A stretch of DNA of 64,000 nt from a virus. Below are positions 22,288-47,934 of the stretch, piece by piece; the first letter of the stretch is position 1; every line of letters starts with the position of its first letter. The notes under the pieces were generated by a model, which saw nothing but the letters and a program-made list of their open reading frames with translations, did not search any database and was not told the origin of the DNA. The stretch lies in IMG/VR virus record IMGVR_UViG_3300043219_000566, positions 62,001-126,000 of that record. The stretch is one strand, 5' to 3'. The position numbers and the translations under genes were made by a program.

Positions 22288-22578
22288 CTAGAATTCGCGC
22301 ATGCGTTTGCCCACATACACCTTGATCTTATCGGCCTTGAGCACTTTTTTCAGCTGGTTCATCTGTGCAGGCGACCAGCCCCGAATCATCGCTTTGAACT
22401 CCTGGATCGCCTTCGAGCGAGCGTGCGCCCGGTTCGACGAGCAGCGACAGCCCTTGCCGCCCTTGATCTTCTTGGCCGGTCCTCGCAGTTGCGGCAAAGC
22501 CGCTACGACGTCGGGGCGCTGTAACAAGCTGACCAGCACTCCATTGGTAAGAGTTGTCGTCCGAGGTCCTTTAGGCAT
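22288..22578 (-). CDS. Small basic protein with Cys pair, of unknown function
   Basis: A 96-residue protein starts at ATG 22578 inside the end of the upstream gene (8-base overlap). The N-terminal part (VLVSLLQRPDVVAALPQL) is followed by a G-C-R-C motif and a basic C-terminal helix-turn-helix-like stretch (QMNQLKKVLKADKIKVYVG). It resembles, loosely, the C-terminal half of the protein 25474-25878 (C-x2-C, then a repeated basic helix). It may be a small regulator or assembly factor. Confidence 0.65.
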   Translation of the reverse strand: MPKGPRTTTLTNGVLVSLLQRPDVVAALPQLRGPAKKIKGGKGCRCSSNRAHARSKAIQEFKAMIRGWSPAQMNQLKKVLKADKIKVYVGKRMREF

Positions 22579-23464
22579 CTGGCGTTACTCGTTCCACCGT
22601 GATGTCGGTAACGCTATTTAAGTGAACTGCTAGAGCAGCCGCAAGTTGCTCGACCTCGTGCTGGATGTTTTCCCACCCCTCCTGCAGCAACTCGGTCCGC
22701 CTGGTGACGTAGTCGAAGGTGCGTTTGCGGTAGAACGGCGGCCACTGCGCCTCGTCTGCGGCCCCCGCCGGATAGTCCACCAGATCGCCCGGACTACATA
22801 CCGCAATCGGACGGCTCTTGGTCTCGCGCCCACGATCCGGCAGGTCGTCCCGCCACAAGAAGATCTTTGCATCGGTGCCGTCGGCCGAGCAAGTCACGCG
22901 CATGCGGTAACCAACCGGGCTATCTTCCGGATAGGCTGCGACTGCGTCGCGCTGTAGCACGAAACGTCGCGCGCCCTGTAGCGAACTGGACGAGTCCAGG
23001 GACGTTGCCCCAGGCGAGAAATCGTAGATCTTCATTTCAGCTGCGCGCAACGGAGCCAAGATGCCCAGCGCGTTCGCTAGTTTCTGGATATCGGACAGCA
23101 GCAACTCCCAGAACTGATCCATGATGGTTTCGTTCCGGAACGTCCAGCTGCCCTGGTTGCTGCGGTAGAACCCCGTCGCCGGATCGGGAGTGCTCTGGGG
23201 CCAGGTCTCCATGTCCAACGGGCTGCAGATGCCGATGAAGTGCGTACGGCCGTTGCCGTCGAGCTTGTAGAGCAAGACGTCGTGGTCGGTGCCGCTGATC
23301 GACGATGAGCTGGGAAACGAGATCGTGGAAGACGAGGACTCGATGCCTTCGATCGGGTCCCACTCGCCCGGCATCCCGACTCGCACGTCCATCCGCGTGC
23401 CGTATTCCTGCAGATTCAGCGACTCGGGAACGGCGACCATCTTGCGGACAGCGTAGTCAGGCAT
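22571..23464 (-). CDS. Virion-associated protein with serine runs
   Basis: A 297-residue protein starts at ATG 23464 with GGGAGG 6 bases upstream. Three runs of four serines occur (ESSSST, PSSSSIS, DSSSSLQ). The rest is a mixture of beta-rich segments and a C-terminal helix (LLQEGWENIQHEVEQLAAAL). It contains two related halves: each has a region of the form I-[GA]-[IV]-C-S-P followed by D, a Pro-rich loop, FYR and a W or F aromatic stretch (residues about 75-115 and 215-255), suggesting an internal duplication. It probably belongs to the tail-fibre set because of its position and the serine runs. Confidence 0.7.
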   Translation of the reverse strand: MPDYAVRKMVAVPESLNLQEYGTRMDVRVGMPGEWDPIEGIESSSSTISFPSSSSISGTDHDVLLYKLDGNGRTHFIGICSPLDMETWPQSTPDPATGFYRSNQGSWTFRNETIMDQFWELLLSDIQKLANALGILAPLRAAEMKIYDFSPGATSLDSSSSLQGARRFVLQRDAVAAYPEDSPVGYRMRVTCSADGTDAKIFLWRDDLPDRGRETKSRPIAVCSPGDLVDYPAGAADEAQWPPFYRKRTFDYVTRRTELLQEGWENIQHEVEQLAAALAVHLNSVTDITVERVTPDA

Positions 23465-23466
23465 CG

Positions 23467-25470
23467 CTAGCCTCCCGCCGAAGACGAGCTGCAGACGCTG
23501 TCGGTGCGGTAGCTTACTACCAGCGCCGGGGCAAGCAGACTTATGCTGCCGTCACGTCGCGCGCCGGGATCAGAGACGACTTCTTGAATCCACAAGCCGA
23601 AGTACTCGTTGCCACCGTCCGGGTCGTAATGCCAACGATCGACGAAGAACTGCATCATCGCAGTGATATTGGGAGGCAAGCTTACCACGCCATTCTGGAT
23701 CGTCGCCGCCAGACGGTCCCAAATTACGCCGTTGCGCGCCACAGCTGGGTCATCGACCCCAGAGAACTGGTCGACTGGCAAGTACCCAGGCTTGTAGATG
23801 TCGCGCACACGCAGCACTGCGTCCTCGCCTGTCTCGGAGGTATGCGCCGTCAAGAGCAAAGCCGCGCTCAGAATATGGGCGCAGCGCGGGATTGCTAGCG
23901 GGAAGCGCAAGAACGCATCCCAGTACTCGCCCGGGTCCAGGTTTCGGCCGAAGCGAATGAAGCCCAGGTCGTTGAATACAGTCTGAGTGCCGTGTTGGTT
24001 GAAGCGTGTTGCCGCGTCCTTGGTGTGCTCCAGGTAAATTAACACGGAGAACAGATCTGGATCGACCCAGTCCGACGACGAAGACACCGGTGCCAGAGAC
24101 GATGACGACAACGCCAACGGCGGCGGCACCGCAGAGAACGACGAAGACGAAGAAGACGGTCCGAACACTGGAGCTACCGAAGATGATTCCACTTCGATTG
24201 GCTCCGGGGCCGTAAACGTCTCGCTGTCTACAAACGCTGCCACTCCGGCCCCGCCGCGCAACACAGCGCCTCTACCAACCACCGGCACGCCGAACTCTAC
24301 CATGTCCAACGAGAGCGTAGCGCACTGCTGCTGGATCTCCTTCCAGGCGCGATCCAACAAAGCTGTCGTAGGCGCGAAAATCTCGGCCTGGCTCGTACGG
24401 AAAGCAAACGGGAATTGCGGCCTGGGCGTATCCTCGGGGATCAAAGTCAGATCATTGATATCGGCTACTCTCCGAAAAACCCGCTTGCGCAGCGTGATCC
24501 CGGGGTACGGTCGGCTGATCTCGTGAACGAAGATCTTGTTGATCACGCCTGAAGTCGACGTGCAGGCGATCAGCATGCGGAATAGGCTGCCCTCGAATCC
24601 CACCTTGTCGCGCAAGTTACCTTGGTCTAAGCGCTCGACCGTGAACGACGGGACTATAGCTGGAGTGAGCGACGAAGATGAAAGGAAAAAGACGCAGTAG
24701 CTAAATCCTGGCACTGGCCTAACGACGGAGTCGCCGCCCCAGTAGAACAAGCTCAGATCGATCGAGTCGCTATTGAACGTGCCATTCCGCCCGTTACCGG
24801 ACTCGTCGGCAATCAGCGCAGTTGGTACTCCACCAGCGTGCTCAGTGGAGCCGTCCCCCATGCGCCACCAACCCTCCAAGAAGGCAGATTTGGTGTAGCT
24901 GCCAGAATCGTCATCCAGCATCAAGCCATCGGCACCGTTGTACAGCGCGACAGCTTGCGCGAAGCTTAGCGTTGTGCTCCAGATACCGACCTCGTCGATC
25001 CAGCCGTCGAATTCCGTTTCGCTGTCGAAAAGCGTGGTGGAACGCACCGCGCCGATGAGAACGTCAGCTGCCTGCATCGTCGTGCCGGTGTACGCGTTCG
25101 TGGCCGCTTGCTGCCCATCGACGAAGACCCAGAGCTGAGACGCGCTGAACGAGATAACGATGTGGTGCCACTCGGCGTCGTTGAGCACGATGCCGAGCAG
25201 CCCGCCGATGTTGTAGTTGAAGATCTCCCCGCCGATGTACACGTCCAAGTCGATAGCGTTGATCGAAAATCCGTACTGGCAGACATTTTTGAACCCCTTG
25301 GCAACGACCATGTAGCTGCCGTTACCCGCAGCCCCAGTTTTGATCCAAGCCTGCATCGACCAGCTGTTCAATCCGGGCTGGAAGTTAAAAGCCGAATGCG
25401 CACCGACGGTAACGTATTCGTTTTCCAGTATCCGGAACTGCCCGGCCCAACAGTTTTGCAATGCACCCAT
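23467..25470 (-). CDS. Fibre-region protein with N-terminal LamG/ConA-like domain
   Basis: The product has 667 residues. Residues about 30-185 match the LamG-like jelly-roll pattern: SMQAWIKT near the start, EWHHIVISF and LWVFVDGQ in the middle, then GWIDEVGIW and ALYNGADG at the end. Such domains bind carbohydrates or proteins in phage tail fibres. Serine runs are numerous (SSSSLTP, SSSSSSFSA, SSSSLAP, SSSSDW, SSSSAGG at the C-terminus). A later region about residues 480-640 may be a second beta-sandwich. It is likely a receptor-binding or glycan-binding fibre component. Confidence 0.8.
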   Translation of the reverse strand: MGALQNCWAGQFRILENEYVTVGAHSAFNFQPGLNSWSMQAWIKTGAAGNGSYMVVAKGFKNVCQYGFSINAIDLDVYIGGEIFNYNIGGLLGIVLNDAEWHHIVISFSASQLWVFVDGQQAATNAYTGTTMQAADVLIGAVRSTTLFDSETEFDGWIDEVGIWSTTLSFAQAVALYNGADGLMLDDDSGSYTKSAFLEGWWRMGDGSTEHAGGVPTALIADESGNGRNGTFNSDSIDLSLFYWGGDSVVRPVPGFSYCVFFLSSSSLTPAIVPSFTVERLDQGNLRDKVGFEGSLFRMLIACTSTSGVINKIFVHEISRPYPGITLRKRVFRRVADINDLTLIPEDTPRPQFPFAFRTSQAEIFAPTTALLDRAWKEIQQQCATLSLDMVEFGVPVVGRGAVLRGGAGVAAFVDSETFTAPEPIEVESSSVAPVFGPSSSSSSFSAVPPPLALSSSSLAPVSSSSDWVDPDLFSVLIYLEHTKDAATRFNQHGTQTVFNDLGFIRFGRNLDPGEYWDAFLRFPLAIPRCAHILSAALLLTAHTSETGEDAVLRVRDIYKPGYLPVDQFSGVDDPAVARNGVIWDRLAATIQNGVVSLPPNITAMMQFFVDRWHYDPDGGNEYFGLWIQEVVSDPGARRDGSISLLAPALVVSYRTDSVCSSSSAGG

Positions 25471-25473
25471 GGG

Positions 25474-25878
25474 CTAATCCACGATTACGAACCGTTCGCG
25501 TTTCTTGGCTGCTTTCCCGGCGTACGCCAGGACGACGCGCTGAAACGGCTTGCGCTTCGCCGCGCTGACGAAGCCGCGGAGTTTTTGCAACTCCTGCATT
25601 CTATCGTGGTCGTAGAGCCACAGGAAAATCTGAGCGAATCCGTCCAGTATCGAGGCCTGAGCACGTAGAGCCTTGAGCCCGTCGCACTTGGTGCAGTCCG
25701 TATTCAGCGCAGACCCATCGAGCCCCTTCTTCTGCATGAACGTAGCCAGTTCCGTAACCGACGACAGCAGCTGAGCGAACGCCGGGCAGTGCTTGTAGAA
25801 GCCCTTGTGTCCCAGCAACCAGAGCACGTTGCTCTTGTTGCACAGGAAATCATCACTCGACACCCGCGATGTTCTCAT
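25474..25878 (-). CDS. Protein of unknown function with C-x2-C motif
   Basis: About 134 residues, start uncertain (ATG 25878 or GTG 25863), overlapping the end of the glycosyltransferase gene. It has an aromatic N-terminal region (NVLWLLGHKGFYKHC), then CTKC, then a helix and a basic C-terminus (AKRKPFQRVVLAYAGKAAKK). A loose resemblance to 22288-22578 (Cys pair followed by about 30 residues and a K-L-[KR]-x-[FV]-type segment ending in a V-x-x-Y stretch) suggests the same small family. Function unknown. Confidence 0.55.
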   Translation of the reverse strand: MRTSRVSSDDFLCNKSNVLWLLGHKGFYKHCPAFAQLLSSVTELATFMQKKGLDGSALNTDCTKCDGLKALRAQASILDGFAQIFLWLYDHDRMQELQKLRGFVSAAKRKPFQRVVLAYAGKAAKKRERFVIVD

Positions 25879-27817
25879 TGTACCCACGGAGATTAGCGTC
25901 ACTGATCTTGACCCCCTGATACGCCTGCGCAACCCCGTAACCTTGCTGTTGCAGCGCTACGCCCATCCAGATGTCGCCGCCGCGATGCTTGATGCGCGGG
26001 TCAGGCCAATTGGCTGCCTGGATCGCGTCGCGGGTCACCAGCCAGAACCCGCCGGTGCAGAAGTCACTTTTGTCCATCGGCGGACGCTTGGTTTTGTCCT
26101 GGTGAAGCGGGCGACCAGCATACCACCCAGCCTGTTTCAGCCAGTCCCACTGGTTGCCGCGCAGGTGCCAGTAGTACACCTTCCCGAACATGTGGTAGCC
26201 CCGGGGATAACGCGCGTCCTGCTGCAAAAACATCTCATCGACCTTGCTGCCGAGATGCAGCAGCCAGTTGCGATCGACGACATGCGAGTCGTCGTCGAAC
26301 CACATGACCCAGTCGGTCGTCAGCGGAGCCTCGGAGTCGTGGAACATGCGCCGCATCATCGGGTACTTGAAGACCTGCGGCGCGGCCTCGTAGATCCGCT
26401 CGACGTTGGGCTTGTCCTCCAGGAACGCCAGCACCTGCTTACGCGCGTCTTTGGTCGGTTCGTTGAGCGCGTAGCGCAGCTTGAACAAGTTGACGTCGAA
26501 GTGCGCGTAGAGGCTGTTCAGACAACGCAGCGCCAGGTCGGAATGCTTGCCGTAGGTCAAGCCGCACACGGTAATCGGGAACGTCAGGTGCTTGAATTTC
26601 ACCTCGTCCGGGCGCAGCGGAACCGTCGGCTCGCTGGGCCGCTTGCTCGGGCGTGCCTGCTTCGCCTTGGTCTTGGCGATTACAGGATGAGGATCTTGCA
26701 CCGGAGCCGGAGTACCCGCGTTCGGCACCTTCACAATCAAGTCTCTGATCGACGGCATCTGGTTCTCTCCGCAAGCGTGCTTTTCGTATTCCAGAATACT
26801 CTCAACGACTCGATCTACTGTAATCATGTCGAGACAACGCGGCAAAGGCACTCGGGCAGGAGTGTAAACGACGTTGCTGCAATTCTGCTCGGGCTTGCCC
26901 TCGGTAACCCGTGTTCGCCAGCAACCATGGTTCTTGCAGCACTTCAACGCGCCGACGGTGTGCAGGAACTTATGCGGCATGAATGGATGATCTACGAACC
27001 GCGCATCTTGATCCGGGTGCCAAGCCTCCCACTGCTTGGGAGTACCCGGCGGCTTCTTGATCCTCCCGCTAGCAAACGCCATGTTGCGCTGCAACGTCTC
27101 GACGTTGTAAGCCTCCCAGGTGTAGTGCTCGCGCCCGCCTGCGATCACCACAGTCGGCTTGCCGATCGCGGCCGCCAGGTGCATGAAGCAGGTAACCGGC
27201 GTCAGGACACCGCGGGCGTGCAAGCAAAGCCGAAACGCCTCGCGCAAGCTGGTTTTGCCCACCATGCTAAGCGCGCCGTTGAGCGGCGGGTGGTAGTGCC
27301 GCGCGCCGCCGCCGCTGGGCTTTCCGCCGATCTGCACGAAGTTGACTACGCCCTCCAGTCGCTGAATGACCTCCTGGTAACGCGCAGCGTCCCACCATTT
27401 GGTGGTAAAGTCGGCCTTGCCGCCCGAGACAACTACCCAGTAGTCGCCCTCGATCAACGGCTCGTTCAGTTCTTGCGGGCTCCAGTGCAGGTCGGGACGG
27501 AACTCGGTCAGCCGCACCTTCAGGTTGAGTTTCTTGTTCAGATCGTCGATGAAGCCCTGGATAAAATGCAGTCCGCACTGATTGGACCTGTGGATTAGCG
27601 GGTAACCCAGCTTGATTACGTTGGTCGTCTTGCGCGCCAAGTTCGCGATATACGGGTTGTTTTCCCAGACCTCTTTTGCCGTCGTTTCGACGCCGGTGAC
27701 GTACTGGTTGGGGTAACACCGATGCAGATCACGCAGGACCACCGACATCATCATGACGTCGCCTGGTGCTTGCGTATTGCGAAAAATCAGCGACCGGGGA
27801 CTACGTGCGCGCCGCAT
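25853..27817 (-). CDS. Two-domain glycosyltransferase (GT9-like plus GT-A/GT2-like)
   Basis: A 654-residue protein starts at ATG 27817, placed by GAGGGAG 3-8 bases upstream. Residues about 1-330 match a heptosyltransferase-type (GT9) fold: FRNTQAPGDVMMMSVVLRDL at the N-terminus, a WVVVSGGKADFTTKWWD segment and a THFMH-like acceptor region (PVTCFMHLAAAIGKPTVVI). Residues about 405-640 match a GT-A domain: FPITVCGLTYGKHSD, then a D-D-D metal motif at about residue 508 (WFDDDSHVVD) and a GGDIWMG segment. A Pro/Lys-rich linker joins them. Phage enzymes of this kind modify virion proteins, phage DNA or host surface glycans. Placement inside the fibre operon next to serine-run proteins favours virion glycosylation. 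Confidence 0.82.
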   Translation of the reverse strand: MRRARSPRSLIFRNTQAPGDVMMMSVVLRDLHRCYPNQYVTGVETTAKEVWENNPYIANLARKTTNVIKLGYPLIHRSNQCGLHFIQGFIDDLNKKLNLKVRLTEFRPDLHWSPQELNEPLIEGDYWVVVSGGKADFTTKWWDAARYQEVIQRLEGVVNFVQIGGKPSGGGARHYHPPLNGALSMVGKTSLREAFRLCLHARGVLTPVTCFMHLAAAIGKPTVVIAGGREHYTWEAYNVETLQRNMAFASGRIKKPPGTPKQWEAWHPDQDARFVDHPFMPHKFLHTVGALKCCKNHGCWRTRVTEGKPEQNCSNVVYTPARVPLPRCLDMITVDRVVESILEYEKHACGENQMPSIRDLIVKVPNAGTPAPVQDPHPVIAKTKAKQARPSKRPSEPTVPLRPDEVKFKHLTFPITVCGLTYGKHSDLALRCLNSLYAHFDVNLFKLRYALNEPTKDARKQVLAFLEDKPNVERIYEAAPQVFKYPMMRRMFHDSEAPLTTDWVMWFDDDSHVVDRNWLLHLGSKVDEMFLQQDARYPRGYHMFGKVYYWHLRGNQWDWLKQAGWYAGRPLHQDKTKRPPMDKSDFCTGGFWLVTRDAIQAANWPDPRIKHRGGDIWMGVALQQQGYGVAQAYQGVKISDANLRGYNENIAGVE

Positions 27818-27827: not shown

Positions 27828-28373
27828 TTACTTACCGCAGCTGGAACAGCCCTTGTGCGGCGATCCCGCAGCAGCAGAAGACAACGAGGCCAGTTGACGT
27901 GCGGCCAGACCGTGCACCAGCGTAGCCGCAGCAGCATAAGCTACCGCAGATAGCATCATTGCGAATAGATGTTGCCGCCCGTTGACCGCCAACCAGAGAA
28001 GCAGCGCAGTCCAGAAAAACTGACAAAACGAGCAGCTCGTGAAGTAAATCAGCATGCGCGTTTTCCACGTGATCTGCATCAAGCTGGAGAGATGCCGGTG
28101 CTTGTGTTCGAGCACCGAGGGCTCCAGCGGTATCCGCGCAGCGTTCATATCACCCTGCGCTGCCTCGGGGTTCCACAGTATCTTGTGGCGTAGCTCCCAT
28201 TGCAGCTGTCGGATCAAAGCAGCATCGGTCGTATTGCGCAGCCTGAACCAGCGCAACAGCTCCGTGGCTAAAAACGACTGGAATAAAACCTTGGTCGCTC
28301 CAAGCGTGACGAAGACCCAAACTATCAACGGAACGACCTGATCCATTCCGCGTACATCAAGAACACTCATCAT
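27828..28373 (-). CDS. DUF1360-like membrane protein (second copy)
   Basis: A 181-residue protein starts at ATG 28373 (AGGAG 8 bases upstream, ATGA overlap with the previous stop). It has an N-terminal apolar segment (VPLIVWVFVTLGATKVLF), then SCSFCQFFWTALLLWLAV (C-x2-C-x3-W) and another apolar segment (FAMMLSAVAYAAAATLVHG), ending with CSSCGK. This is the same arrangement as 6882-7328. Co-translation with the glycosyltransferase directly downstream (10-base gap) suggests a membrane partner, perhaps for export or anchoring; this is inference. Confidence 0.7.
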   Translation of the reverse strand: MMSVLDVRGMDQVVPLIVWVFVTLGATKVLFQSFLATELLRWFRLRNTTDAALIRQLQWELRHKILWNPEAAQGDMNAARIPLEPSVLEHKHRHLSSLMQITWKTRMLIYFTSCSFCQFFWTALLLWLAVNGRQHLFAMMLSAVAYAAAATLVHGLAARQLASLSSAAAGSPHKGCSSCGK

Positions 28374-28692: not shown

Positions 28693-31600
28693 CTATTCGC
28701 AAGGATTGTAGGGAGAACAAGTTCCACCCTGCCAAACTCCGCCCATCAGATCGCACTCGCCCTCTCCGTCGACTAAAAAGCACGAGGCTCCCACGCAGCA
28801 AGCGCCCATGTTCTGCTCATCAGGTGACCAGCACGGAAGCGGATTGGTCCAGCTCTCGCACGGGCAGTCGCTGCCGTAATCCTGCCAACCCTGCGGGCTC
28901 AAGCTGTAACTCCGCAGCGTCGGAATACCAGGGCGTTCATCCGGGTATGGTGTGCTCAGCCAAAGATCGCCAGCGAACTCGTTCTCATGGCCCTCGAAAT
29001 ACCGGTAAGCCCGGCCGGAGCCATCGAGGTTCAAGTCCGTGGCAGCCCAGACCCTGTCGCCTTGACACACCGGTTGCATCCATACTGAGCACTCGCAAAC
29101 ATAGCCATCAGCGCAGGCCTGCGACCCCATCCCGCCCAAGTTACTATGGGTAGGTCCATAGTAAAAATTTAGTCCGCCGAGACGTGTTGTTTCGCATAAA
29201 CTTGGTTTTGAAGCGTTAGGATTAGGGTTATCGTACCCAAAGACCTCGACCGGCGGCGGCCAAGTTATCACCTCGGCCAAGGACCAACAGCAATTGTGGC
29301 AAACCCGGCAAGTACCGACAACATCCCACCACGACTGCGCGAGCCCCTCCCAGTAGACTCCCATCACCTCATGGAACCACATCCCGAGTTCCCCCACTGC
29401 CGGAAATAGCTCGCCGCACCCGTACATGTCGCCCAAGCAGTTGCCGCTTGCTTCCTTTCCAGGGGTGCCCGTGCTGACCTGGAACGGGCCTTCAAGCCAC
29501 TCGTGATCGAAGCGCGCTTTGCGAAACGGGCCGCCGTGGTTGCTATCGGGACCGCCGACGCAACGAGCGGGCGTACAGATGAATTTAGACCAGCCTTCGA
29601 CTTGCTCCATACGTACCTCAGCATACACATGTAGCAGGGGCGCATCGCATTCGTACGTCTCCAAATTCCGCCCGACGCAAAGCCTTGAGCGCGAAGACAT
29701 ACCGCACCCAGTGGTCGAACCTACGTTGCAAAACACGTTATGATGTACAGTCCACTCGTCAAAACTAGTTCCAGATACGAACCCTTCGCACGCCGAATAG
29801 CGATAGGCCACCATCCCGCACTGCCCCGCAGCTGGTCCGCCGTGTAATTCCCAGCATTCCGACCACGAAGGCCGACTCCAAGAATCGCAAATAAGCGTCG
29901 GCCACCATTCTTCATATACAACCTCTCCGTTTTCCGCTACTTTCATGTAGAAGCCCTGGTAGTATCCTTCACAGCACATGTGGGACGCGTCAATCGTCCA
30001 CGTTTCGACTTGCTCGATAGTATTCGCGCCGTATGAATGATAGTGCCCGCAGCCCAGTCCCATAAAGGTATCCGGCGTGCGCTTGCGGCTCTTGATTGTC
30101 GATTGAGTCCAAATGCCGTTGGTAATCAGGTATTCGACCGCGTTGATGATCTCCAAGATGTGGGTCGGCGCGATTACGTCACCCGGGCGTAATCCCACTT
30201 CGGCGTACCTGTTAAATATCCTCCCAGAGTTCGCGACAGCCGGTTCGTACCAGCAACGAAACAACGAAGGCATAACTTCCCAAGAATTGCCGCCACCGTA
30301 GAACGGATTCCGCGGTCCGGCTTCCGGGTCGTTGGGGACCCACGAGCGCGGCGGCGGCGCGCCGCTGCGAAAGAGCATGTCGATCCCGCGCCAAGACTTG
30401 CGCGCACGCTGCGAGCCGTGCGCGGGCTCGTCCGGGTGGTTGTGCAGCGGGCGTACGTCGTCCCACGCGGGCGGCTTCGGCTGAGTTACGCTGATCGGAG
30501 TCGGCCTAAAAGCGCCGCCAGGCGGATTAGGACTCGGGGGCGGATTGATTTCAATCTCATCGATCGGGTCCATACCCGCGCCGGTTTCGCCCCACTCGCC
30601 CTTGCCGCCGTGGATGTACTGCGGCCAAGGCGCGGAACCTGACCAGCGCCAGCGGATCGGCATATTCATACAGCAGTAACCATGGTTACTCGTGGGACTC
30701 GGGCGAGTTCGTGGGTTATGGTGCACGATCGTCTGGGCTTCCCAGATATCACCACAAAGATCCTGGTCTCCGCAAGTCTGTCCGACAATGAACGAGAGCG
30801 TAAAGCGCACCATGTTCAGCAACTCGGGCTGGATCGTCTCGGAACCATCGAAGTAGTAGCGGTCGGTTCCCTTGCGGCAGCTATTCAGCATCTCCGGCAG
30901 CCCGCGGCCGTACGGATTGTAGTGCGTAAACCAGGTTACCTTGTGGCGCTGCTCGTGAGACGGCGGAGACGAGCCGCCCGGCTCATAATACCACGTGCCG
31001 CCGACCCTGATTCGGATGTACCAATTCACTTCGGTACCTTGGCTGTACGGGCCAATCGTAGCCGAGTACTCCGGCCCCCCGGTCATCGGAGTCACTTCGC
31101 TGTCGTGAACCAACTCAACCTGCGAAGGTGTTGCCACGCCGCTGGGCTTGCTCCAATGAAACCGGATCTCCTCGCCGTTTACTTCAAAGATATCCGGCTC
31201 GGAACCGAACTCCCCATCCGCGCGCGGGTCACCTCCACCCCCACTGCCCTCTTCGCGCCCGTAGCTGCCGGGCGGAAAATAGGTCGTGTTGTGCTCGCCC
31301 CCAATCAACGCCATACCCGAGTCGCAACTCCGCGGAAGAATCGGGACCTGCGGCAGCGGATGCTGCCCAACACACGAGGGCGCTACATTTCCGATTGCCG
31401 CGTACTCCTTACCGCCGCCAGGAGCCGGGGGATACCCGGTCGGCGTAGCCTCCGCGTAGTCGGAGTAGTCGCAATCGACCAGACCGCCACTGTACGGATT
31501 CGGCTTTGGCGACTCCTCCCAGCTCTCTGGCCCCCACAGACAGCGCGGGTGCGTGCGAGCATGCCACTGCTGCTTCGGCTCGGTATCGTAACGCGGCCGC

Positions 31601-31857
31601 CCGCCCCACAGCGCGTACAGCAGCCCTTCGAGCTGCTCCATCGCTTTGGCGAATTGCCCACCCAGCGTTTCTTCCCAGTTGATCTCGTCCCCGCCCGCCG
31701 GAGGCGAGCCCGCCGGGAGAATGCGCTTGCCGGGGTGCATGTCCGACCACTTCATCGCGTAAGGCCGTTCAGCAACGTTCGGGTGAGCCAACCGCTCATC
31801 GATGTGCGAAGTGGTTCCGTACTGCGTGGGCTCCTCGAAGGTAACGTCGTGCGACAC
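28693..31857 (-). CDS. Large Cys/Trp-rich fibre-region protein with GACC-type C-terminus
   Basis: The product has 1054 residues. It is extremely rich in Trp, Cys, Gly, Pro and Tyr and shows no membrane segment. Residues about 215-300 look like a fibronectin-III or immunoglobulin-like fold. The last 40 residues read GACCVGASCFLV, then a C, then GGVWQGGTC and NPC, a Cys-rich module I recall from planctomycete secreted proteins. Many Cys pairs (for example GHYHSYGANT region, CGMSSRSRLC, CRVCHNCC) imply disulphide stabilisation outside the cell. An extracellular adhesin or tail-fibre role is likely from the neighbourhood. The start at ATG 31857 lies 2 bases after the stop of the upstream gene. 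Confidence 0.75.
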   Translation of the reverse strand: MSHDVTFEEPTQYGTTSHIDERLAHPNVAERPYAMKWSDMHPGKRILPAGSPPAGGDEINWEETLGGQFAKAMEQLEGLLYALWGGRPRYDTEPKQQWHARTHPRCLWGPESWEESPKPNPYSGGLVDCDYSDYAEATPTGYPPAPGGGKEYAAIGNVAPSCVGQHPLPQVPILPRSCDSGMALIGGEHNTTYFPPGSYGREEGSGGGGDPRADGEFGSEPDIFEVNGEEIRFHWSKPSGVATPSQVELVHDSEVTPMTGGPEYSATIGPYSQGTEVNWYIRIRVGGTWYYEPGGSSPPSHEQRHKVTWFTHYNPYGRGLPEMLNSCRKGTDRYYFDGSETIQPELLNMVRFTLSFIVGQTCGDQDLCGDIWEAQTIVHHNPRTRPSPTSNHGYCCMNMPIRWRWSGSAPWPQYIHGGKGEWGETGAGMDPIDEIEINPPPSPNPPGGAFRPTPISVTQPKPPAWDDVRPLHNHPDEPAHGSQRARKSWRGIDMLFRSGAPPPRSWVPNDPEAGPRNPFYGGGNSWEVMPSLFRCWYEPAVANSGRIFNRYAEVGLRPGDVIAPTHILEIINAVEYLITNGIWTQSTIKSRKRTPDTFMGLGCGHYHSYGANTIEQVETWTIDASHMCCEGYYQGFYMKVAENGEVVYEEWWPTLICDSWSRPSWSECWELHGGPAAGQCGMVAYRYSACEGFVSGTSFDEWTVHHNVFCNVGSTTGCGMSSRSRLCVGRNLETYECDAPLLHVYAEVRMEQVEGWSKFICTPARCVGGPDSNHGGPFRKARFDHEWLEGPFQVSTGTPGKEASGNCLGDMYGCGELFPAVGELGMWFHEVMGVYWEGLAQSWWDVVGTCRVCHNCCWSLAEVITWPPPVEVFGYDNPNPNASKPSLCETTRLGGLNFYYGPTHSNLGGMGSQACADGYVCECSVWMQPVCQGDRVWAATDLNLDGSGRAYRYFEGHENEFAGDLWLSTPYPDERPGIPTLRSYSLSPQGWQDYGSDCPCESWTNPLPCWSPDEQNMGACCVGASCFLVDGEGECDLMGGVWQGGTCSPYNPCE

Positions 31858-37163: not shown

Positions 37164-37984
37164 CAACCCTCTCCGAAGAAGAACATCCTGATCCCGTTCG
37201 GAATCGGGACAACTCGCAGCGCCGGTTCTTGCGCGTAATTCTCGATGTACCCGACTAAGAGCTGGACAGTCCCGGAACCATGCGGTCCGATATTCTCCTC
37301 GTCAAACTGGATTGTCTTGAGCAAGCGATCACGTTCTACCGGGGCACCTTCGGCTTCGCAGTCTCGGCGTACGAACAACGGATCGCCTACCACATCGACC
37401 CTGATGATCTCCTCCCAGCCGTGCCAGACGCCGAACTGACCACCCAACGACGAGGACGAGCCGTCCTGGTTCACAACGGTCAGCTGTACGCCGTTCTCGC
37501 CGACCAGGGGGACGTCGCCGTGAAAGATCTCGCCGGACTCCAGCCGCACGGTGCGTACGCAGGCTTGAGGCTGCGGTACAACCACCGTAGCTGCGAACCG
37601 CGTTTGTGGCATCTGGAAGGTGTAGGTCCCGTCGGGCCAGCCAGCGAGCTTGGACAACCCGCGGTCGCCCACCGGGTAGCCCAGCAAGCAACCTAGATAG
37701 ATCTCCCCGTCGGCGAAGAAATCGACCCAACTCGGTGGAGCATTGCGAGTGAAAGATCCGCTGCCGAGCGCCCCGCGTCCGTCGGACAAAGAGATTGTGA
37801 CCTGTTCGCCGACTTCGATAGACGCGATGAACAGATCGTGTCGTCCGCCCGGCGGGTAGAGACGCCCGTCGATAAAGACATCGTTCTCGATAGCAACCTG
37901 CCCGTTGGTGCGCGTAGCGCTAGGGTCAAACGGGTAGGCCGTATCGACGGACTCGTCATAATACGTTGGCAGCGTGACTCGCAT
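37163..37984 (-). CDS. R-x-YPF family fibre protein, paralogue 2 (short, no INGV region)
   Basis: A 273-residue protein starts at ATG 37984 directly after the palindrome 37986-37997; no good ribosome site is visible, so coupling or a structured leader is likely. The N-terminal motif is SVDTAYPFDPS. Residues about 35-50 contain VFIDGRLYPPGG. A run of four serines (DGSSSSLGG) is near the middle. It lacks the C-terminal INGV part seen in the other paralogues. Beta-rich; function inferred from family and location only. Confidence 0.65.
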   Translation of the reverse strand: MRVTLPTYYDESVDTAYPFDPSATRTNGQVAIENDVFIDGRLYPPGGRHDLFIASIEVGEQVTISLSDGRGALGSGSFTRNAPPSWVDFFADGEIYLGCLLGYPVGDRGLSKLAGWPDGTYTFQMPQTRFAATVVVPQPQACVRTVRLESGEIFHGDVPLVGENGVQLTVVNQDGSSSSLGGQFGVWHGWEEIIRVDVVGDPLFVRRDCEAEGAPVERDRLLKTIQFDEENIGPHGSGTVQLLVGYIENYAQEPALRVVPIPNGIRMFFFGEG

Positions 37985-41139: not shown

Positions 41140-42530
41140 CAACTACCGCCTTTGTTCGTGTTGCTGATCAGCTGCACGTTTGCCTGCAGCACGGAAGGCT
41201 CCGTGGCCGCGCATGCCAGCACCGAAGCGTCGATTTGCACATTAGCGTCCTCGACCCGGTCAGGACCGCTGACGCGCACCGAGAACGTGAACAGCTTGTA
41301 ATGCCCGCCTTTGATGGCAGAGTTGTCCACGAAAGTGTAAGTCCCGTCGCCGTTGTCAGTCGGGTCTACCTGCCCGTAGTTGTCCTGGGTGTTGTAGACC
41401 ATCCCGCTGCCAGGAACGTACTCGAACGTGTAGTCGCCGCCCGCGAACGAGATATCGACCGTCGCGCCTTCCTGCAGACAATCCTCCATGTTGCCGACCC
41501 AGACCTGGATAGTGACCAGCCAGCCAGTGAAGGCGTAGCCGAACAGCTGCGATACGCAACCTTCGCCCACGCACGCGACCCGCAGGTCCCATTCGGCCTT
41601 AGTAGTTTCGTAGGCCGCGAGCACGTCCGCCCAGATATCCTTGATAGCCAGGCCCTCATCCTTCAGCTGCCGGATGTGTTCCAGCAACTCAGAGAAATCG
41701 TCGCACTGACAGCAAGCCCGGCAGTCGTTGTGGATCTTGATCACGAAGGGCCGCGGCTCATTTCCGACGATGCGACGATGAATTCGGTAGCAGTCGTCAC
41801 CGGCGATAAAGAAGTTCCCCTCGTCACCAGCGATCTGATTGATCGTACGAATCTCGGCCAACGAACCGCCGCAATCCGTTTCGAGTTTGCCAGTACCCGC
41901 GCCAGGAATAGCGCTGATCTTGATCCTCCGAACGTCCGGGCGCAGCACAGACTTGGTTAAATCGCGCGCGGTAGTCAACGGCGTAGACGGGTCTACTTCG
42001 AGCTGGATATTGGTCCCCTCGATCAGCTCGCCGATCTCGCCCAGATTCACCCAAGTTCCGGCCGTAAGCCCGATGGAATTCACCCGGGCGGGTTGACGAC
42101 CGATGCAGCGAGGCACGAACTCCGGATAGGGCGAGGAGAACTCGATTGGCGAAGACGCGGTAGACAGCGGGCTGTAATCGTGATTCAAGACGAGCGTAAG
42201 TGCCAGACCTTCGTCCTCGTCGGTGTAAACCAGCACTCGGTAGTCGCCGATTACGCTGTTGGAAGTCGGCGTAACATCGAGAAGCGCGCCAGTTTCGGTG
42301 TTGTAGAGCACCAAGTCCCAGGACGACGCCGGGTCCAGGCTCACGAAGCGCCAATGATAATCGTGGTCCTCGTCGGCGTTGTCCGATCGAAAAGTCAGGT
42401 AGGCGTCCAGGAAAAACGGTCGGGGATCGTTGGCCTGGTAGGGCGCACTGAGAGTTAGGTCCGCGGCATCCGTAAACGGATACGCGCGGCTCTTGTTGCG
42501 CTCCAGCCACTCGCCTTCCATGCCCGGCAC
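41139..42530 (-). CDS. R-x-YPF family fibre protein, paralogue 4
   Basis: A 463-residue protein from GTG 42530 (GAGGA 6 bases upstream) or ATG 42521. The N-terminal motif is WLERNKSRAYPFTDA. The INGV region is changed to RTINQIAGDEGNFFI at about residues 225-245. It then has a Cys-rich stretch HNDCRACCQC, a helix and a C-terminal beta domain (GATVDISFAGGDYTFEYVPG) resembling an immunoglobulin-like or invasin-type fold. It contains short serine stretches (STASSP). Likely baseplate-proximal fibre. Confidence 0.72.
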   Translation of the reverse strand: MPGMEGEWLERNKSRAYPFTDAADLTLSAPYQANDPRPFFLDAYLTFRSDNADEDHDYHWRFVSLDPASSWDLVLYNTETGALLDVTPTSNSVIGDYRVLVYTDEDEGLALTLVLNHDYSPLSTASSPIEFSSPYPEFVPRCIGRQPARVNSIGLTAGTWVNLGEIGELIEGTNIQLEVDPSTPLTTARDLTKSVLRPDVRRIKISAIPGAGTGKLETDCGGSLAEIRTINQIAGDEGNFFIAGDDCYRIHRRIVGNEPRPFVIKIHNDCRACCQCDDFSELLEHIRQLKDEGLAIKDIWADVLAAYETTKAEWDLRVACVGEGCVSQLFGYAFTGWLVTIQVWVGNMEDCLQEGATVDISFAGGDYTFEYVPGSGMVYNTQDNYGQVDPTDNGDGTYTFVDNSAIKGGHYKLFTFSVRVSGPDRVEDANVQIDASVLACAATEPSVLQANVQLISNTNKGGS

Positions 42531-42540
42531 GTAATTTCCT

Positions 42541-43482
42541 CTAATCGCATGGGACGATGTTCCCCAGCTTAGAGGCCAGGATCACATCCCGCATTTGTTC
42601 CACATTGCCCAGCGCGCGCTCAGCGTACGCGCGCTGTGTGGCGATCTGTGACGCCAGGCGCGCTAGCTCGTCGCGCAACACCTGCAGTTCGTTGCATCCA
42701 CAACAGGGATCGGCGCAGGTGTCCTCTAGTTCAATGCCGTGCGAGATCCCGGCCCAGTTAATGCAGTTCGCCGTCCGCACCAGAAAATCACCGGTGTTCG
42801 GATCGGGTCCAATGCCGTTGATAGTCTCGATGCACCGCCCGCCGGGGGCGTCCGGGCATTCGCACTCTGCTTCGTAATCTGTGCTCGGGACAGCAGAGAT
42901 CCGCAACTGCTTCGCACCGGACGGCGGCGTAATCAGGGTCAGTCCAATGTTGTCGCCTGCCAGGATCTCGACGTCACCCTGGATCAGATCGCTTTCCTCG
43001 TTGTCCGCGTTGACGATACGCAACGCTGACACGCCCTGGAGACTGGGGCGAAAGACCGTGGGTAACAAGCGGGCATTTCCCACGCTGAAGCTGTACGAGC
43101 CTCCGTACTTCTTGATCTCGTCGAAACGCCCGATAGCGATGCGCCCCACGCTGTCGGCAAAGTCGCCGGTGCCCTCGATGTAGTAAGCCGCGTTCTCGGT
43201 GTGACCGGCCTCGGTGATCGCGCGAGTCGCAATAGCGGCAGCCTCACCGTCGTAGCCGATGGAGATGATGACCCCACCCGCGAAAACCGTCAGCTGCTTG
43301 AGGTAGAACTTCGACACGTCGTACGTTTGGGCAGGCACCGGAAAGATCAGATCAACGATCAGCTCCCTGGGGATCTCCAGCGAGTCGGAGTCGTCCTTCA
43401 AGGAGACATCGTCCATGAACGGAAACCGCCGGTTGCGGTTGTTGTTCAACCAGTCTTCATGGATGACGCCGCCAGCAACCAT
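42541..43482 (-). CDS. R-x-YPF family fibre protein, paralogue 5
   Basis: A 313-residue protein starts at ATG 43482 with AGGAA 5 bases upstream. The N-terminal motif is LNNNRNRRFPFMDD. The INGV region is ETINGIGPDPNTGDFLV at about residues 215-235. A Cys-rich segment (CADPCCGCNEL) leads to a C-terminal helical coil of about 40 residues (LQVLRDELARLASQIATQ), which could trimerise. It is the simplest full-length member and the best guide to the family domain. Confidence 0.74.
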   Translation of the reverse strand: MVAGGVIHEDWLNNNRNRRFPFMDDVSLKDDSDSLEIPRELIVDLIFPVPAQTYDVSKFYLKQLTVFAGGVIISIGYDGEAAAIATRAITEAGHTENAAYYIEGTGDFADSVGRIAIGRFDEIKKYGGSYSFSVGNARLLPTVFRPSLQGVSALRIVNADNEESDLIQGDVEILAGDNIGLTLITPPSGAKQLRISAVPSTDYEAECECPDAPGGRCIETINGIGPDPNTGDFLVRTANCINWAGISHGIELEDTCADPCCGCNELQVLRDELARLASQIATQRAYAERALGNVEQMRDVILASKLGNIVPCD

Positions 43483-43670
43483 TAATTCCTACTTTTTTCC
43501 AGCGCGCAAAGCATGCACCCGGCTGTTTTCCCCAGCTTCGGTTGGCGGCCGACCCGCTCGTCGTACACCCGACGATGCCCGCACGCCAGCGTAAAGACGA
43601 GCTTGCCGTACGTGTGACAATGCCGCAGTCCCACGATCTTCCGGTTCAGCGGACTAACTCTCTTATCCAT
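43482..43670 (-). CDS. Small Cys/His protein, probable zinc knuckle
   Basis: A 62-residue ORF starts at ATG 43670 with GGGG 6 bases upstream and its stop overlaps the start of the next gene. It is basic, with C-H-T-Y near the N-terminus, then LACGHRRVY and AGCMLCALE. The CGH...C-x2-C pattern suggests one zinc site. No family is recognised. It is wedged between two fibre genes and its codon pattern is like theirs. Confidence 0.6.
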   Translation of the reverse strand: MDKRVSPLNRKIVGLRHCHTYGKLVFTLACGHRRVYDERVGRQPKLGKTAGCMLCALEKSRN

Positions 43671-43671
43671 A

Positions 43672-45498
43672 TCACGCCCCGTCGTAGATGGTGGCTACCA
43701 TGTTCACCACCGCTAGTTCTCCTGCGTAACTGTCGGAGTCCGAGCGCGTCACCCGGAACATCAACAACTGGTTGCTGCTGACTGGCACGTCTAAAGCCAG
43801 CTTGGCAAAGTAGTTACCGATATCCATCGCTCCGGCATCTTCCAGATCGAGCTGAGCCGCGGAAGAAAGCGAGGTCGGCAACGTCGGGAACGGGCTACCA
43901 GGATGCCCAGAAGACGACGACAACCCCACGAACTCCGTGTCGTTAATCAAGGCGTACTCGATAGTTACGCCCGCAGGCGGGGTACCCGCCGTCGGAGTAG
44001 CGAACCAGAGGTCCAGCTGCAACCGCGGCTGCGTCATCAAGACGTGCGGCACCCGCACCCGGCCGATGTAACTGGTCTCGCGGCCGCTGGGCAAACCGAC
44101 GTAGGGGAGAACCGACTGGTAAATGCTCTCAGACGCCCCAGAGAGCGCTACAAGGCCCACGTCGACCTTCCGCGACACTTGGGTCGGGTCGAGACCGTTA
44201 ATCGTCACAGACCCCGCAGAATAGCCGCCTGCGAGTATCTGTGACCCAGTCACGACCGCTAAACCGGTTCCGCGGATGCCTTCGACCATGTGACCGACCA
44301 GAAGATTCCCGTAACCGGTCACGTTCTTGACGACCTGCGAACCAGCCTGCCCGCCCGTACGATCCCAAGGCAGCTCGATGTCGAGGATGACCTTGCTCTG
44401 ACAGTAGCCCTCGGCGTCTGGAGACGCGCACCCGCTTACCACGAGCGGAGAGCCGTCGGCGGCCTTGATGCCCGTGACGGACGCCTGGGCGGTCTTGGAG
44501 ACCATCCGCGTGAACCAGAGCGTCAGACGCCGGTAGATCGACGCACACGGCGCGGGACGACCGGGCGCAGTGGTCCCGGACGAGGACGACGCGACCGGCG
44601 TGGACACTGAGCTGGAGATACAGGTGTCTTGCTCCCACGGAACGTCGGAATCGCAGCTGGTCATCCACCAGATACCGTTGCTGTCGATCAGAACGTGGTC
44701 CGGCGAGACCCCTGTGCCATTCAGATCCAGGTGAGCCCCGGACAGCGGCTGCGGGGGCCAGACGGCCGCAAGCAACGAGTTGCGGGTCCAGTTGTAGCCG
44801 AAGTACGCCCCGACCGGAGCTGTGTTGCCGAAGATCGGGTCAGCAGCCTCCAGCCAGCCCTCGCGCTCTGAGTCCCCGTGGACGATGTCGACTCGGCCGC
44901 TCTCCAGGCAGATCACCGTTCCGGCGGCTTCGGGCAGCAAGTCGAACTTGTAGTGAATGTGGTCTTCCAGCACCTCGCGGGGCGTCGGGTTGACGATCAA
45001 GCCGTCTTCGGTGACCTGCGCTACGTAGACCGCCGCTGCCGGGCGCGCTGATACCAGGCGGCCCTGGTCAACGGCGCTCAGCCAGTAGTGCCCCTCGGGC
45101 AGATCCGTGCCGCTGGCGTCCTGAACCGTCAGACCCTTGTACCGCCCGCGGATCAGGATATCGGCTGCCACGGCGCTCAGCTTGCGCGCTACGACGCCTA
45201 TCACGTAGCCCGAGTCTGCCAGCTTGAGCATGCCGTTGACGTCGTCGGTCGTGCTGGCGAGCGCGGGCTTGAACTGCTGGTCCGTTTCGTCGTAGTAGAC
45301 TGCCATATCGGCGCTGACTGCGGACGAGATCGCCTGGCTGAACAGGATCAACCCCTCGCCGATAGCCGAAGCGTCCAGGCGGTCCTTCAGATACTGCGTA
45401 CGCTCAGCAAGCTGCGTAACCGGCAGACCAACCGTCTGCTCGTTTACGTCATCGCCGTTGCGAATCATGCTGATGTTTTCACGCCAAGTCGATGCCAT
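43672..45498 (-). CDS. Tail-fibre protein (serine runs)
   Basis: A 608-residue protein starts at ATG 45498 with GAGA 6-9 bases upstream. The N-terminal 45 residues (WRENISMIRNGDDVNEQTV, then AERTQYLKDRLD) match the short helical start seen in many phage fibres that attach to baseplates. The body is beta-rich with serine runs (CISSSVSTP, ASSSSGT, LSSSSGH). The C-terminal part looks like a beta-sandwich ending in NMVATIYDGA. Likely a distal receptor-binding fibre. Confidence 0.75.
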   Translation of the reverse strand: MASTWRENISMIRNGDDVNEQTVGLPVTQLAERTQYLKDRLDASAIGEGLILFSQAISSAVSADMAVYYDETDQQFKPALASTTDDVNGMLKLADSGYVIGVVARKLSAVAADILIRGRYKGLTVQDASGTDLPEGHYWLSAVDQGRLVSARPAAAVYVAQVTEDGLIVNPTPREVLEDHIHYKFDLLPEAAGTVICLESGRVDIVHGDSEREGWLEAADPIFGNTAPVGAYFGYNWTRNSLLAAVWPPQPLSGAHLDLNGTGVSPDHVLIDSNGIWWMTSCDSDVPWEQDTCISSSVSTPVASSSSGTTAPGRPAPCASIYRRLTLWFTRMVSKTAQASVTGIKAADGSPLVVSGCASPDAEGYCQSKVILDIELPWDRTGGQAGSQVVKNVTGYGNLLVGHMVEGIRGTGLAVVTGSQILAGGYSAGSVTINGLDPTQVSRKVDVGLVALSGASESIYQSVLPYVGLPSGRETSYIGRVRVPHVLMTQPRLQLDLWFATPTAGTPPAGVTIEYALINDTEFVGLSSSSGHPGSPFPTLPTSLSSAAQLDLEDAGAMDIGNYFAKLALDVPVSSNQLLMFRVTRSDSDSYAGELAVVNMVATIYDGA

Positions 45499-45509
45499 GG
45501 CTTATCTCA

Positions 45510-46091
45510 CTAGGTCCACGAGTGCGCGAAGATAACCGTCCACCGCAAACCGAAACCACCAGTAGCCGGTACAACCAGCGGGGCTCCCGGTGCCCAGGCG
45601 GCGTAGACCATGTCCTGGGTGTTGTCGTCCCAGTCCGGCGCGACGACCAGCGCCGCCATCTCGACGGCGTCGCCCGCGTTGAAAACCAGGCTGTTGGCCT
45701 CGCCGACATCCCCCGAAGCCGCGATCCCGGAGAAGACTATCTGGTTCGAGTTGTAGAGACCCGGATGCGCTACTTCCGTTGCGCTGGTAATGCCCTCACC
45801 CAGCCTTGTCCGAACGAAATCCAGCCCGGCCCCGAGATTGAGGAACTGAGCTGCCGTGATCTCGCGGCTGGCGACGCTGCGCCCGGTACCCGCTCCGCCG
45901 TCCTCGAACTGGAAGTACATCCCGTTGATGCCGACGCTCAACTCGCCGGACATGATCTTGCCCAACGCGTCGAAGCCTTCGTACTGCACCGTATTGTGCT
46001 CGCGCAGCAAAATGCGCTCACGACCGTGCTCGTCGATAGTGAACGCCTCGATCCGGCCGAGCACCAGTGGAGGTCGTGCGATCAAGTTCAT
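45510..46091 (-). CDS. Fibre-associated protein with N-T-x2-YEG motif
   Basis: A 193-residue protein from ATG 46091 (AGGGA 8 bases upstream). It contains HNTVQYEGFDALGKIMSG followed by an M-Y-F-x-F-E-D-G-G stretch, the same domain pattern as 32255-33070. Beta-rich C-terminus (GLRWTVIFAHSWT). It follows the tail protein at 46102-47934, the usual place for baseplate-fibre adaptor proteins. The frame is open to 46109, but that extension has no ribosome site. Confidence 0.68.
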   Translation of the reverse strand: MNLIARPPLVLGRIEAFTIDEHGRERILLREHNTVQYEGFDALGKIMSGELSVGINGMYFQFEDGGAGTGRSVASREITAAQFLNLGAGLDFVRTRLGEGITSATEVAHPGLYNSNQIVFSGIAASGDVGEANSLVFNAGDAVEMAALVVAPDWDDNTQDMVYAAWAPGAPLVVPATGGFGLRWTVIFAHSWT

Positions 46092-46101
46092 AGCTGCATC
46101 C

Positions 46102-47934
46102 CTAATCACAATTCACTGCCGGATAGAAGACCGTCGGCTCCAGATCACCGAGGTATCCGTACAGCTCCGTAGCCGGGTCAATCACATCCTCGGTTGCCAA
46201 AGCATCCGCAACAGCCACCGCACACCCGGACGCGAACGATGACGATGACGACGACGTATTGTCGCCACACGCCGTTACGTCGGTGTGAACGCTGTCCGTT
46301 GTCTCAGCTTCAGCCTCTACCAGGAAGATGATTGCTTTGCCAGGCAGCAACGTGCTGCGCAGCAGCTCCAGCAATTCAAGTCCCAACGCGTCTTTACCGA
46401 AGCGCGTATAACGCAGGTATACCACAAGAGTGTTGTTGCGCAGAAAATGTTCGATGACCCAGCCCGCCGGGTTCACGTACGCCGGTGTGATTCCCAGCTG
46501 CTCCAGCCACGTCCGCCCGGCAGTAACGCCGTTGGCGTGTGCAGTAGACCAGAATAGAGCCACATCTTCGTCAGCGCCGTCCAACGGCACGACTTTCGCA
46601 TGCACCCGCCCGCCGCTGTCGACCGTCGCGGTATCGATGCTGCCAAGCTGGTTGCGGAAACCAAGCGATCCGTAGTAGCCGCTCCCGAGCAGCGCTCGGT
46701 TGATAGGCAAGGCCGTCAGCAACGGCATTTCGTTCACAGGCGGCTTGATCTTCGACGGTGAGCGTTGCCTGCTGTAGACCCGCTGCCGCGCGCCCGAAGA
46801 TGACGACGACTCGCCGGGAGTGTAGCGCGTTACGATTTGTCCCGTGTCGTCGACTCGAACTGCCTGTAGCAGCGCTACGATGTCGTCGTAATTGGCCAAG
46901 TCGAACACGCTGACCGTGTCGACCAGCGCTTGCCCCGCGTAAACCGTCTGTCCGATAGAGACGTTGGCCTGGCTCTGAGCCGGGTAGATGTAGCAGTGCT
47001 GATCGGTGCAGACGACGGTCTTGTAAGCGTAGCCCAAGACGCCCTCGACAACTTCCGAGGTCTCGCGCACCATCGGGATACCTACGATAGCAGCTAGTGC
47101 CCAATCGAGGTCCCGCGCACTCAACCCGCCCACGAATCCGTTCCATAGCGAGTTAATCAGATTCGCGTAGCTCTCCGAGCTGGCCAGCTTGCGCCGAATG
47201 ACGTAACCGTAATGCTCGTAGAGGTACTCCCAGTCCTCGTGCGAGTTGAACGCCCACAGCACAACCTCGCGGTCGGTGACGTTGCCACGGTCGTCCAAGA
47301 TGCTGGTCACGGTAAGTCGCGCGTCGTTGAACGGATCGTCCCGCAGATAGATCGAACCGTCTTCGACAAAAAAGTCGCTGCCGTTTACCCAAGCCAGCGT
47401 GGGATCGAGCATCCGGTTCAGAAGCACGCCGATGTGCTTGATATCTGTTAGATCCGCGGTGTGAAACTGATTGCCGACAGGGACGCCGTAGCGGTAGCTG
47501 CCGTCGTAGTACGCCCCGTCGCCGTACTTCAGCACCGCTGCCCGGCCAGTATCGATCTCGCTTTCCTTGATAACCAGCGCGTGCCAGATCCGGCGGTGAA
47601 AGATCGGGCACGAGAAACGACTAACGCAGGCGACAGCTTCCAGGTAGTCCAGATACGCCTGCAGAAATTGCTGCGAGTTGGCCCGCTCCAGCCCCAGCAG
47701 CTGCCCGCGATCCTCGAAGTGCCGCGACCAGAACGAACCCAGCGCCGCGACGATCGGCCAGCCAGTCGACATGTCTCCGCGGGGATGCTTCGGCAGAAAC
47801 GTGTTGCCCGACAGCGTGTACCCGGTCGGGGTCACCAGCAGAGTATCGTCCCTTTCCCGTGGAGGAAGCACAGTTTGCTCCTCGGGATCATGGGGGCCGT
47901 CCCACTGGAAAATGTCGTCGAGTGCGTCTCCCAT
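46102..47934 (-). CDS. Baseplate/tail protein (downstream of gpJ-like)
   Basis: A 610-residue protein starts at ATG 47934, directly after the gpJ-like gene. By position it corresponds to tail protein I of P2-like phages, but it is much longer. The N-terminal 170 residues are hydrophilic and helical; aromatic-rich segments follow. Serine runs (GESSSSSGA, TSSSSSSFAS) mark two linkers. There is a GYYGSLGFR segment and a C-terminal ELLELLRSTLLPGKAIIF stretch. I assign it to the baseplate-to-fibre junction from order and size, not from a family match. Confidence 0.7.
   Translation of the reverse strand: MGDALDDIFQWDGPHDPEEQTVLPPRERDDTLLVTPTGYTLSGNTFLPKHPRGDMSTGWPIVAALGSFWSRHFEDRGQLLGLERANSQQFLQAYLDYLEAVACVSRFSCPIFHRRIWHALVIKESEIDTGRAAVLKYGDGAYYDGSYRYGVPVGNQFHTADLTDIKHIGVLLNRMLDPTLAWVNGSDFFVEDGSIYLRDDPFNDARLTVTSILDDRGNVTDREVVLWAFNSHEDWEYLYEHYGYVIRRKLASSESYANLINSLWNGFVGGLSARDLDWALAAIVGIPMVRETSEVVEGVLGYAYKTVVCTDQHCYIYPAQSQANVSIGQTVYAGQALVDTVSVFDLANYDDIVALLQAVRVDDTGQIVTRYTPGESSSSSGARQRVYSRQRSPSKIKPPVNEMPLLTALPINRALLGSGYYGSLGFRNQLGSIDTATVDSGGRVHAKVVPLDGADEDVALFWSTAHANGVTAGRTWLEQLGITPAYVNPAGWVIEHFLRNNTLVVYLRYTRFGKDALGLELLELLRSTLLPGKAIIFLVEAEAETTDSVHTDVTACGDNTSSSSSSFASGCAVAVADALATEDVIDPATELYGYLGDLEPTVFYPAVNCD

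Follow-up and report, generated by a model that had tools for sequence, protein, structure and literature searches.

The DNA considered here is a window of 64,000 nucleotides from a virus record of 216,501 bases (IMGVR_UViG_3300043219_000566, bases 62001-126000), and its genes are almost all on the minus strand. A predicted baseplate gene pair (47935-50089) is followed by a fibre region, and among the fibre genes sits one for a two-domain glycosyltransferase (25853-27817), in the company of eight genes whose proteins carry runs of serine. Are the enzyme and the runs parts of one system? As for the baseplate pair, the 49598-50089 product resembles the baseplate-wedge family PHROG 43 (E 1.8e-5), and a pattern scan with the 47935-49593 product as a marker found no relatives. 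The fibre-region genes and the enzyme gene share the minus strand and are separated by short gaps, so that their co-transcription, asserted in the first-pass annotation, is plausible; scans for promoters and terminators gave nothing above chance. Gene calls in our scripts were made by a simple codon-usage method.

Runs of at least four serines, the longest of seven, occur 21 times in the window, against about 0.4 expected when summed over composition-preserving shuffles. The genes that bear them are exactly the eight listed in the first-pass annotation, and no such run was present in any other gene tested in the window. All eight are on the minus strand. The first (22571-23464, 297 amino acids, three runs) belongs to a family whose genes, in most relatives, lie immediately or closely downstream of the transferase. 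It is followed by a laminin-G-domain protein (23467-25470, 667 amino acids) with five runs of at least four serines, four of which are conserved in the related phage locus L003. A protein with repeated LPCP-type motifs (33070-35325, 751 amino acids) has its run near the N terminus, and two shorter fibre-module proteins come next (36243-37166, 307 amino acids; 37163-37984, 273 amino acids). In the latter the run is absent from the orthologue in another related locus, L004, and falls in a low-confidence stretch of a structure model that is confident for the N-terminal half only. The three others are a 966-residue protein with six runs of up to seven serines (38242-41142), a 608-residue protein with two (43672-45498) and a 610-residue protein with two (46102-47934), which adjoins the predicted baseplate gene. 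Genes of this kind continue beyond the window, at 125-132 kb of the record. The preference is for serine: every other residue forms at most two homopolymer runs in the window, and across 35 phage tail loci there are 259 runs of serine against 56 of glycine, 50 of alanine and 22 of threonine, yet alanine and glycine are commoner than serine.

Do these runs persist because of the protein or because of the DNA? The annotation had described a slippage-prone TCG/TCA repeat, and it was right that most run codons are of the TCN type (74 of 95). The runs nevertheless mix TCN and AGY codons, and identical neighbouring serine codons are not in excess in the window (19 versus 18.1 expected) and are strongly avoided in the related locus L046, from record G009 (27 versus 66 expected). 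Between the window and its nearest relative, L003, whose fibre proteins are 40-57% identical to those of the window, 59 of 95 run serines are conserved, compared with 102 of 302 other serines, and the same codon is kept at only 17 of the 59. Since the run serines are conserved while their codons have diverged, with no excess of identical codons, the runs are kept at the level of the protein. Run lengths do differ between relatives, as slippage would have it; even so, these codon and conservation data largely contradict DNA slippage as the origin of the runs, which was rejected, and the idea that they are neutral products without function is very improbable. A genome-wide search for TCN-run patterns was uninformative because it also matches runs of acidic residues on the opposite strand.

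The enzyme is 654 amino acids long and consists of a GT9-like GT-B domain (approximately residues 1-350; 26768-27817, minus), a disordered linker and a GT-A domain (approximately residues 411-654; 25856-26587, minus). Residues 173-280 match the GT9 profile PF01075 with an E of 9.1e-11 and 42 bits, against a curated cut-off of 22. Homologues in L003 and L004 are 62% and 42% identical over the alignment. In the GT-A half, the DDD at 508-510, a motif of the metal-binding DxD type of GT-A enzymes, is conserved in the two-domain homologues, and homologues match the GT2-type profiles PF13641 and PF00535. The two-domain call of the first-pass annotation is thus borne out, and the structure prediction that it proposed for both domains agrees: in an AlphaFold2 model (predicted local distance difference test score of 82), one half has a GT-B fold like that of solved GT9 enzymes and the other a GT-A fold. 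Foldseek returned WaaF, TibC and WaaC for the GT9 half (1psw, E 4.6e-9; 4rb4 and 4rap, about 1e-8), and ppGalNAc-T1 and RmlT for the GT-A half.

The GT9 domain also holds a four-cysteine finger (C293/C294-C299-C313-C328; 26834-26941, minus). Cysteines 293, 299, 313 and 328 are invariant in 20 phage sequences, with C294 nearly so, and 32 of 35 bacterial relatives share the pattern C..GCW..C..C. When a profile of phage and bacterial GT9 sequences was compared by HHalign with 12 autotransporter heptosyltransferases, which are TIGR04414 matches taken from Caballeronia and further genomes in its genus group, the probability was 96.5 and the E 1e-9, and the finger cysteines aligned with those of the iron finger of the BAHT family, which includes TibC and AAH. 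In TibC, the finger holds iron and aids substrate recognition, mutation of any finger cysteine abolishes activity, and TibC-type heptosyltransferases add the sugar to serine and not to threonine (PMC4358343). The phage enzyme is like a BAHT in its GT9-type GT-B fold, in the place of the finger in the C lobe and in its coupling to serine-bearing surface proteins. There are also differences. The alignment starts at phage residue 15 and BAHT residue 135, which leaves no room in the phage protein for the N-terminal beta-barrel (TibC residues 1-97); the GT-A domain is an addition; and the partners are serine-run proteins rather than the passenger domains of autotransporters.

One function known for phage glycosyltransferases is the modification of bases in phage DNA (discussed in PMC12619734), and the record does contain genes of thymidylate metabolism. 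That both domains of this enzyme glycosylate modified bases is nonetheless highly unlikely: the gene lies in the fibre module and not with replication or nucleotide genes, and its fold and finger match protein and lipopolysaccharide (LPS) glycosyltransferases.

In bacteria, members of this GT9 family are strongly enriched near serine-run proteins. A genome scan gave 74 bacterial loci, mostly from Planctomycetes and Verrucomicrobia, with others from Bacteroidota, Caballeronia, Pseudomonas, Armatimonadetes and further groups; many come from metagenome-assembled genomes, and some are possibly mobile or viral. A Bacteroidota-wide sample returned only the query genome (1 of 396), so that the family is patchy there. 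A serine-run protein lies within 8 kb in 32 of the 74 loci, with 218 runs against 25.6 from shuffles. Around ordinary GT9 genes, taken from sixteen of these genomes, 1 of 40 windows had a run, and that a single one (p 9e-7 versus 32 of 74; p-values here and below are optimistic because the sequences are related), and restriction to the same genomes gave 7 of 16 family loci versus 1 of 40 (p 3e-4). Random windows contained a single run each in 2 of 16 cases, and a second sample of Planctomycetes gave 4 of 6 versus 2 of 14. The partner proteins are varied: RHS-type proteins (a label given by eye) with serine-rich N-termini, Bacteroidota proteins with serine-run linkers, and Caballeronia proteins. 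In the cultured Caballeronia telluris (L115:6385-11526), a methyltransferase-domain gene, whose product is glycosyltransferase-like in its N-terminal half, a finger-bearing GT9 gene and two serine-run genes stand side by side. As a separate observation, in several Planctomycetes loci (L264-L267, L126, L148) the GT9 has RHS-type or very serine-rich proteins nearby, and some of these loci have a gene resembling the one upstream of the Caballeronia GT9.

The LPS heptosyltransferases WaaC and WaaF share the PF01075 fold with the phage enzyme. They differ from it in that their genes do not lie in a fibre module and, as the ordinary GT9 loci above indicate, serine-run neighbours are rare around them. 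To our knowledge, WaaC and WaaF have no cysteine finger.

Among phages, scans of viral contigs gave 25 loci with the enzyme as query and 27 with a fibre protein. Throughout a broad phage clade the transferase gene is part of the tail-fibre module, in a conserved order: fibre-module families, transferase, the 22571-23464 family and then the 20549-21292 family. In L035 and L036 the GT-A half is a separate gene. A search of an isolate phage collection with the enzyme, a fibre protein and relatives gave no match except through the laminin-G domain, which alone of the queries matched Synechococcus phages, and a search of plasmids gave none. Two loci, L047 (G010) and L049 (G012), have near-equal gene lengths and a 641-residue transferase in both, and a 781-residue serine- and threonine-rich protein in the module of just one. 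In L046, one truncated tail-module protein consists of 38% serine.

What of the sugar? A heptose-7-phosphate-kinase-like gene of the PfkB type (G000:C1:198527-199561; L012:13527-14561, minus) has as its best match the heptose-7-phosphate kinase domain of HldE (TIGR02198, E 1.7e-71, 241 bits), and 11 of 25 related phage records encode an HldE-like kinase. A SIS-domain gene (G000:C1:178492-179169; L011:13492-14169, minus) matches PF13580 (E 4e-7) and has weak similarity to the phosphoheptose isomerase GmhA. As judged from sequence similarity, these two genes fit a heptose donor, and they are no proof of one. Outside the fibre region, the record also has a second glycan cluster (G000:C1:176292-196978; L011, L012) with GT2/GT7C enzymes, a second GT9, two GT4-like enzymes, a sulfotransferase and a sugar nucleotidyltransferase-like protein.

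Several results weigh against a single system of enzyme and runs. TIGR04414, the BAHT equivalog profile, has no match at an E of 1 or less in the enzymes of the window, L003 and L004, compared with 502 bits for a true BAHT; with the missing beta-barrel, this sequence evidence places the phage enzyme outside the BAHT family. The GT-A half is degenerate in L030, L032, L033, L034 and L027 and is not part of the same protein in L028 and L029. The score of the PfkB kinase is under the 345-bit cut-off of TIGR02198. In run-containing bacterial loci, a serine-run gene is the immediate neighbour in 13 cases against 11.0 by chance, so the association holds at the level of the locus and not of immediate adjacency. 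Among phage modules seen well enough to be counted, a run of at least four serines is present in 18 of 25 with the enzyme and in 3 of 6 without it (p 0.36); for at least two runs the counts are 17 of 25 and 1 of 6, again not significant (p 0.06). The record G009 has a complete module with 23 runs inside it, many more upstream and no transferase: neither a GT9 nor a GT2 match was found anywhere in its 100 kb, a fragment, the syntenic position included. Conversely, the enzyme occurs without any run of four serines in G005, G012, G014, G019, G020, G021 and G029. The first-pass annotation had named relatives with the same serine runs and no transferase gene as grounds for rejecting its idea, and G009 is a relative of that kind. 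Strict coupling in related phages therefore fails in both directions, with at least seven relatives in the second, and within the phage clade the coupling of enzyme and runs is loose. Two further observations belong beside these: G009 carries a heptose-kinase-like gene, and in G003 the enzyme is present with no runs seen at a locus whose genes were called poorly.

Such exceptions suit an explanation in which the runs are plain flexible linkers and the transferase modifies surface glycans of the host, for instance to block superinfection, the two being neighbours without a shared function. The runs occupy loops, termini and variable stretches and are gained or lost from one orthologue to the next, enzyme and runs occur apart in several relatives, the second glycosyltransferase set and the sulfotransferase lie outside the fibre region, and the GT9 fold is common to LPS heptosyltransferases. 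This is the main rival, and on balance an unlikely one, because it leaves unexplained the bacterial association (32 of 74 versus 1 of 40), the TibC-type finger and the placing in fibre modules across the clade; the association and the finger argue against it. A second rival keeps the fibre proteins as substrates, glycosylated at other sites, with the serine runs as incidental linkers. It would account for the phages that keep the enzyme without a run of four serines, and for the gene directly or nearly preceding the 22571-23464 family in most relatives, runs or no runs. It is rather improbable, since the proteins associated with the enzyme in bacteria have serine runs in common and are otherwise unrelated in kind.

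The explanation that we favour is that the enzyme is a protein serine O-glycosyltransferase acting on the fibre-module proteins, a proposal that, on the sequence evidence, has about an even chance of being correct. Bacterial relatives are often near serine-run proteins, and therefore the phage may coat its fibres with sugar. The GT9 half would add the first sugar, probably a heptose, to the side chains of serines, chiefly those of the exposed and flexible runs, which would serve as dense acceptor sites, and the TibC-like finger may help to grip the acceptor. The GT-A half would either attach a second sugar or share the acceptor. Because the gene lies among fibre genes, the enzyme would work inside infected cells, on newly synthesised fibre proteins. 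Glycosylated runs would then act as soluble, protease-resistant spacers or shields on the tail. The broader proposal is of an undescribed system for O-glycosylation of serine runs, with a four-cysteine-finger GT9 at its core and frequently a GT-A partner, that is patchily distributed over many bacterial phyla and is used by a clade of uncultivated phages of about 200 kb to sugar-coat their tail fibres; we put its probability at roughly 0.4. The sugar-coated fibres of the first-pass annotation thus gain from the finger, the bacterial enrichment and the placing in the fibre module, and lose from G009, the relatives without runs and a phage association that is not significant.

The same annotation drew an analogy with the serine-rich-repeat adhesins of Gram-positive bacteria, which are serine-rich surface proteins with linked transferases. 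These systems use other enzyme families and secretion partners, and have long serine-rich repeats rather than the short runs seen here. The parallel of serine-rich proteins with a linked transferase stands, and the Gram-negative autotransporter heptosyltransferases are the better analogy. The annotation also held that a phage version would be new. In the account given in PMC12619734, which cites Freeman et al. 2023, virion glycosylation is already known in mycobacteriophages, whose glycosyltransferases are thought to decorate structural proteins. In that case the sugars sit at the C-termini of capsid and tail-tube proteins, whereas our candidates, known from sequence, belong to the fibre region and have their serine runs internally. 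Serine O-heptosylation is likewise already known (PMC4358343). The new element is a finger-bearing GT9 family that is outside the known heptosyltransferases, is linked to serine-run proteins in bacteria and is present in phage fibre modules. A literature search by title and abstract, with subscription journals mostly outside its reach, found nothing relevant on GT9 together with serine-rich proteins or polyserine. If the proposal is true, protein glycosylation would extend to a family beyond the autotransporter heptosyltransferases, whose acceptor, runs of serine, is simple and easily recognised, and phages would decorate the fibres that contact the host and not the capsid or tail tube only. 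It offers a testable reason for the serine runs of fibre proteins, and the cultured Caballeronia telluris, Chitinophagaceae DXS and Rhodocytophaga aerolata allow tests of the chemistry that do not need the uncultivated phage.

The remaining genes deserve a brief account. Directly upstream of the transferase lies a small membrane-type protein (27828-28373, minus). Of the loci examined, just the window and L003 have it beside the enzyme. It had been called DUF1360-like; the membrane-type character stands and the DUF1360 assignment is unsupported, with no Pfam or NCBIfam family convincingly matched, DUF1360 included (Pfam: none at an E of 0.1 or less). Also in the fibre region is a 1054-residue protein (28693-31857), rich in cysteine and tryptophan and without a family match. 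At least some of the fibre-module families are paralogues: started from the 37163-37984 protein, an iterated search extends to the 42541-43482 family, and five families have, by eye, a common N-terminal N..R.YPF-like pattern.

Elsewhere in the record, a RuBisCO-like protein (G000:C1:193834-195030; L012:8834-10030, minus) has type III RuBisCO as its best match (E 1.2e-50, below the cut-off). By eye, its KPK and KEDE motifs are kept and the loop-6 lysine is seemingly replaced, so that it is possibly non-carboxylating. A single protein of 1465 residues (G000:C1:148901-153298; L010:3901-8298, minus) has matches to both the Rpb2 and the Rpb1 domains of RNA polymerase, and a simple pattern did not find the NADFDGD active-site motif in it. 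Moraphages, considered as the clade of these phages, were dismissed in view of their reported lack of RNA polymerase genes (PMC12619734). A ribonucleotide reductase gene (G000:C1:169216-172674; L011:4216-7674, minus) contains a probable intein with an HNH endonuclease.

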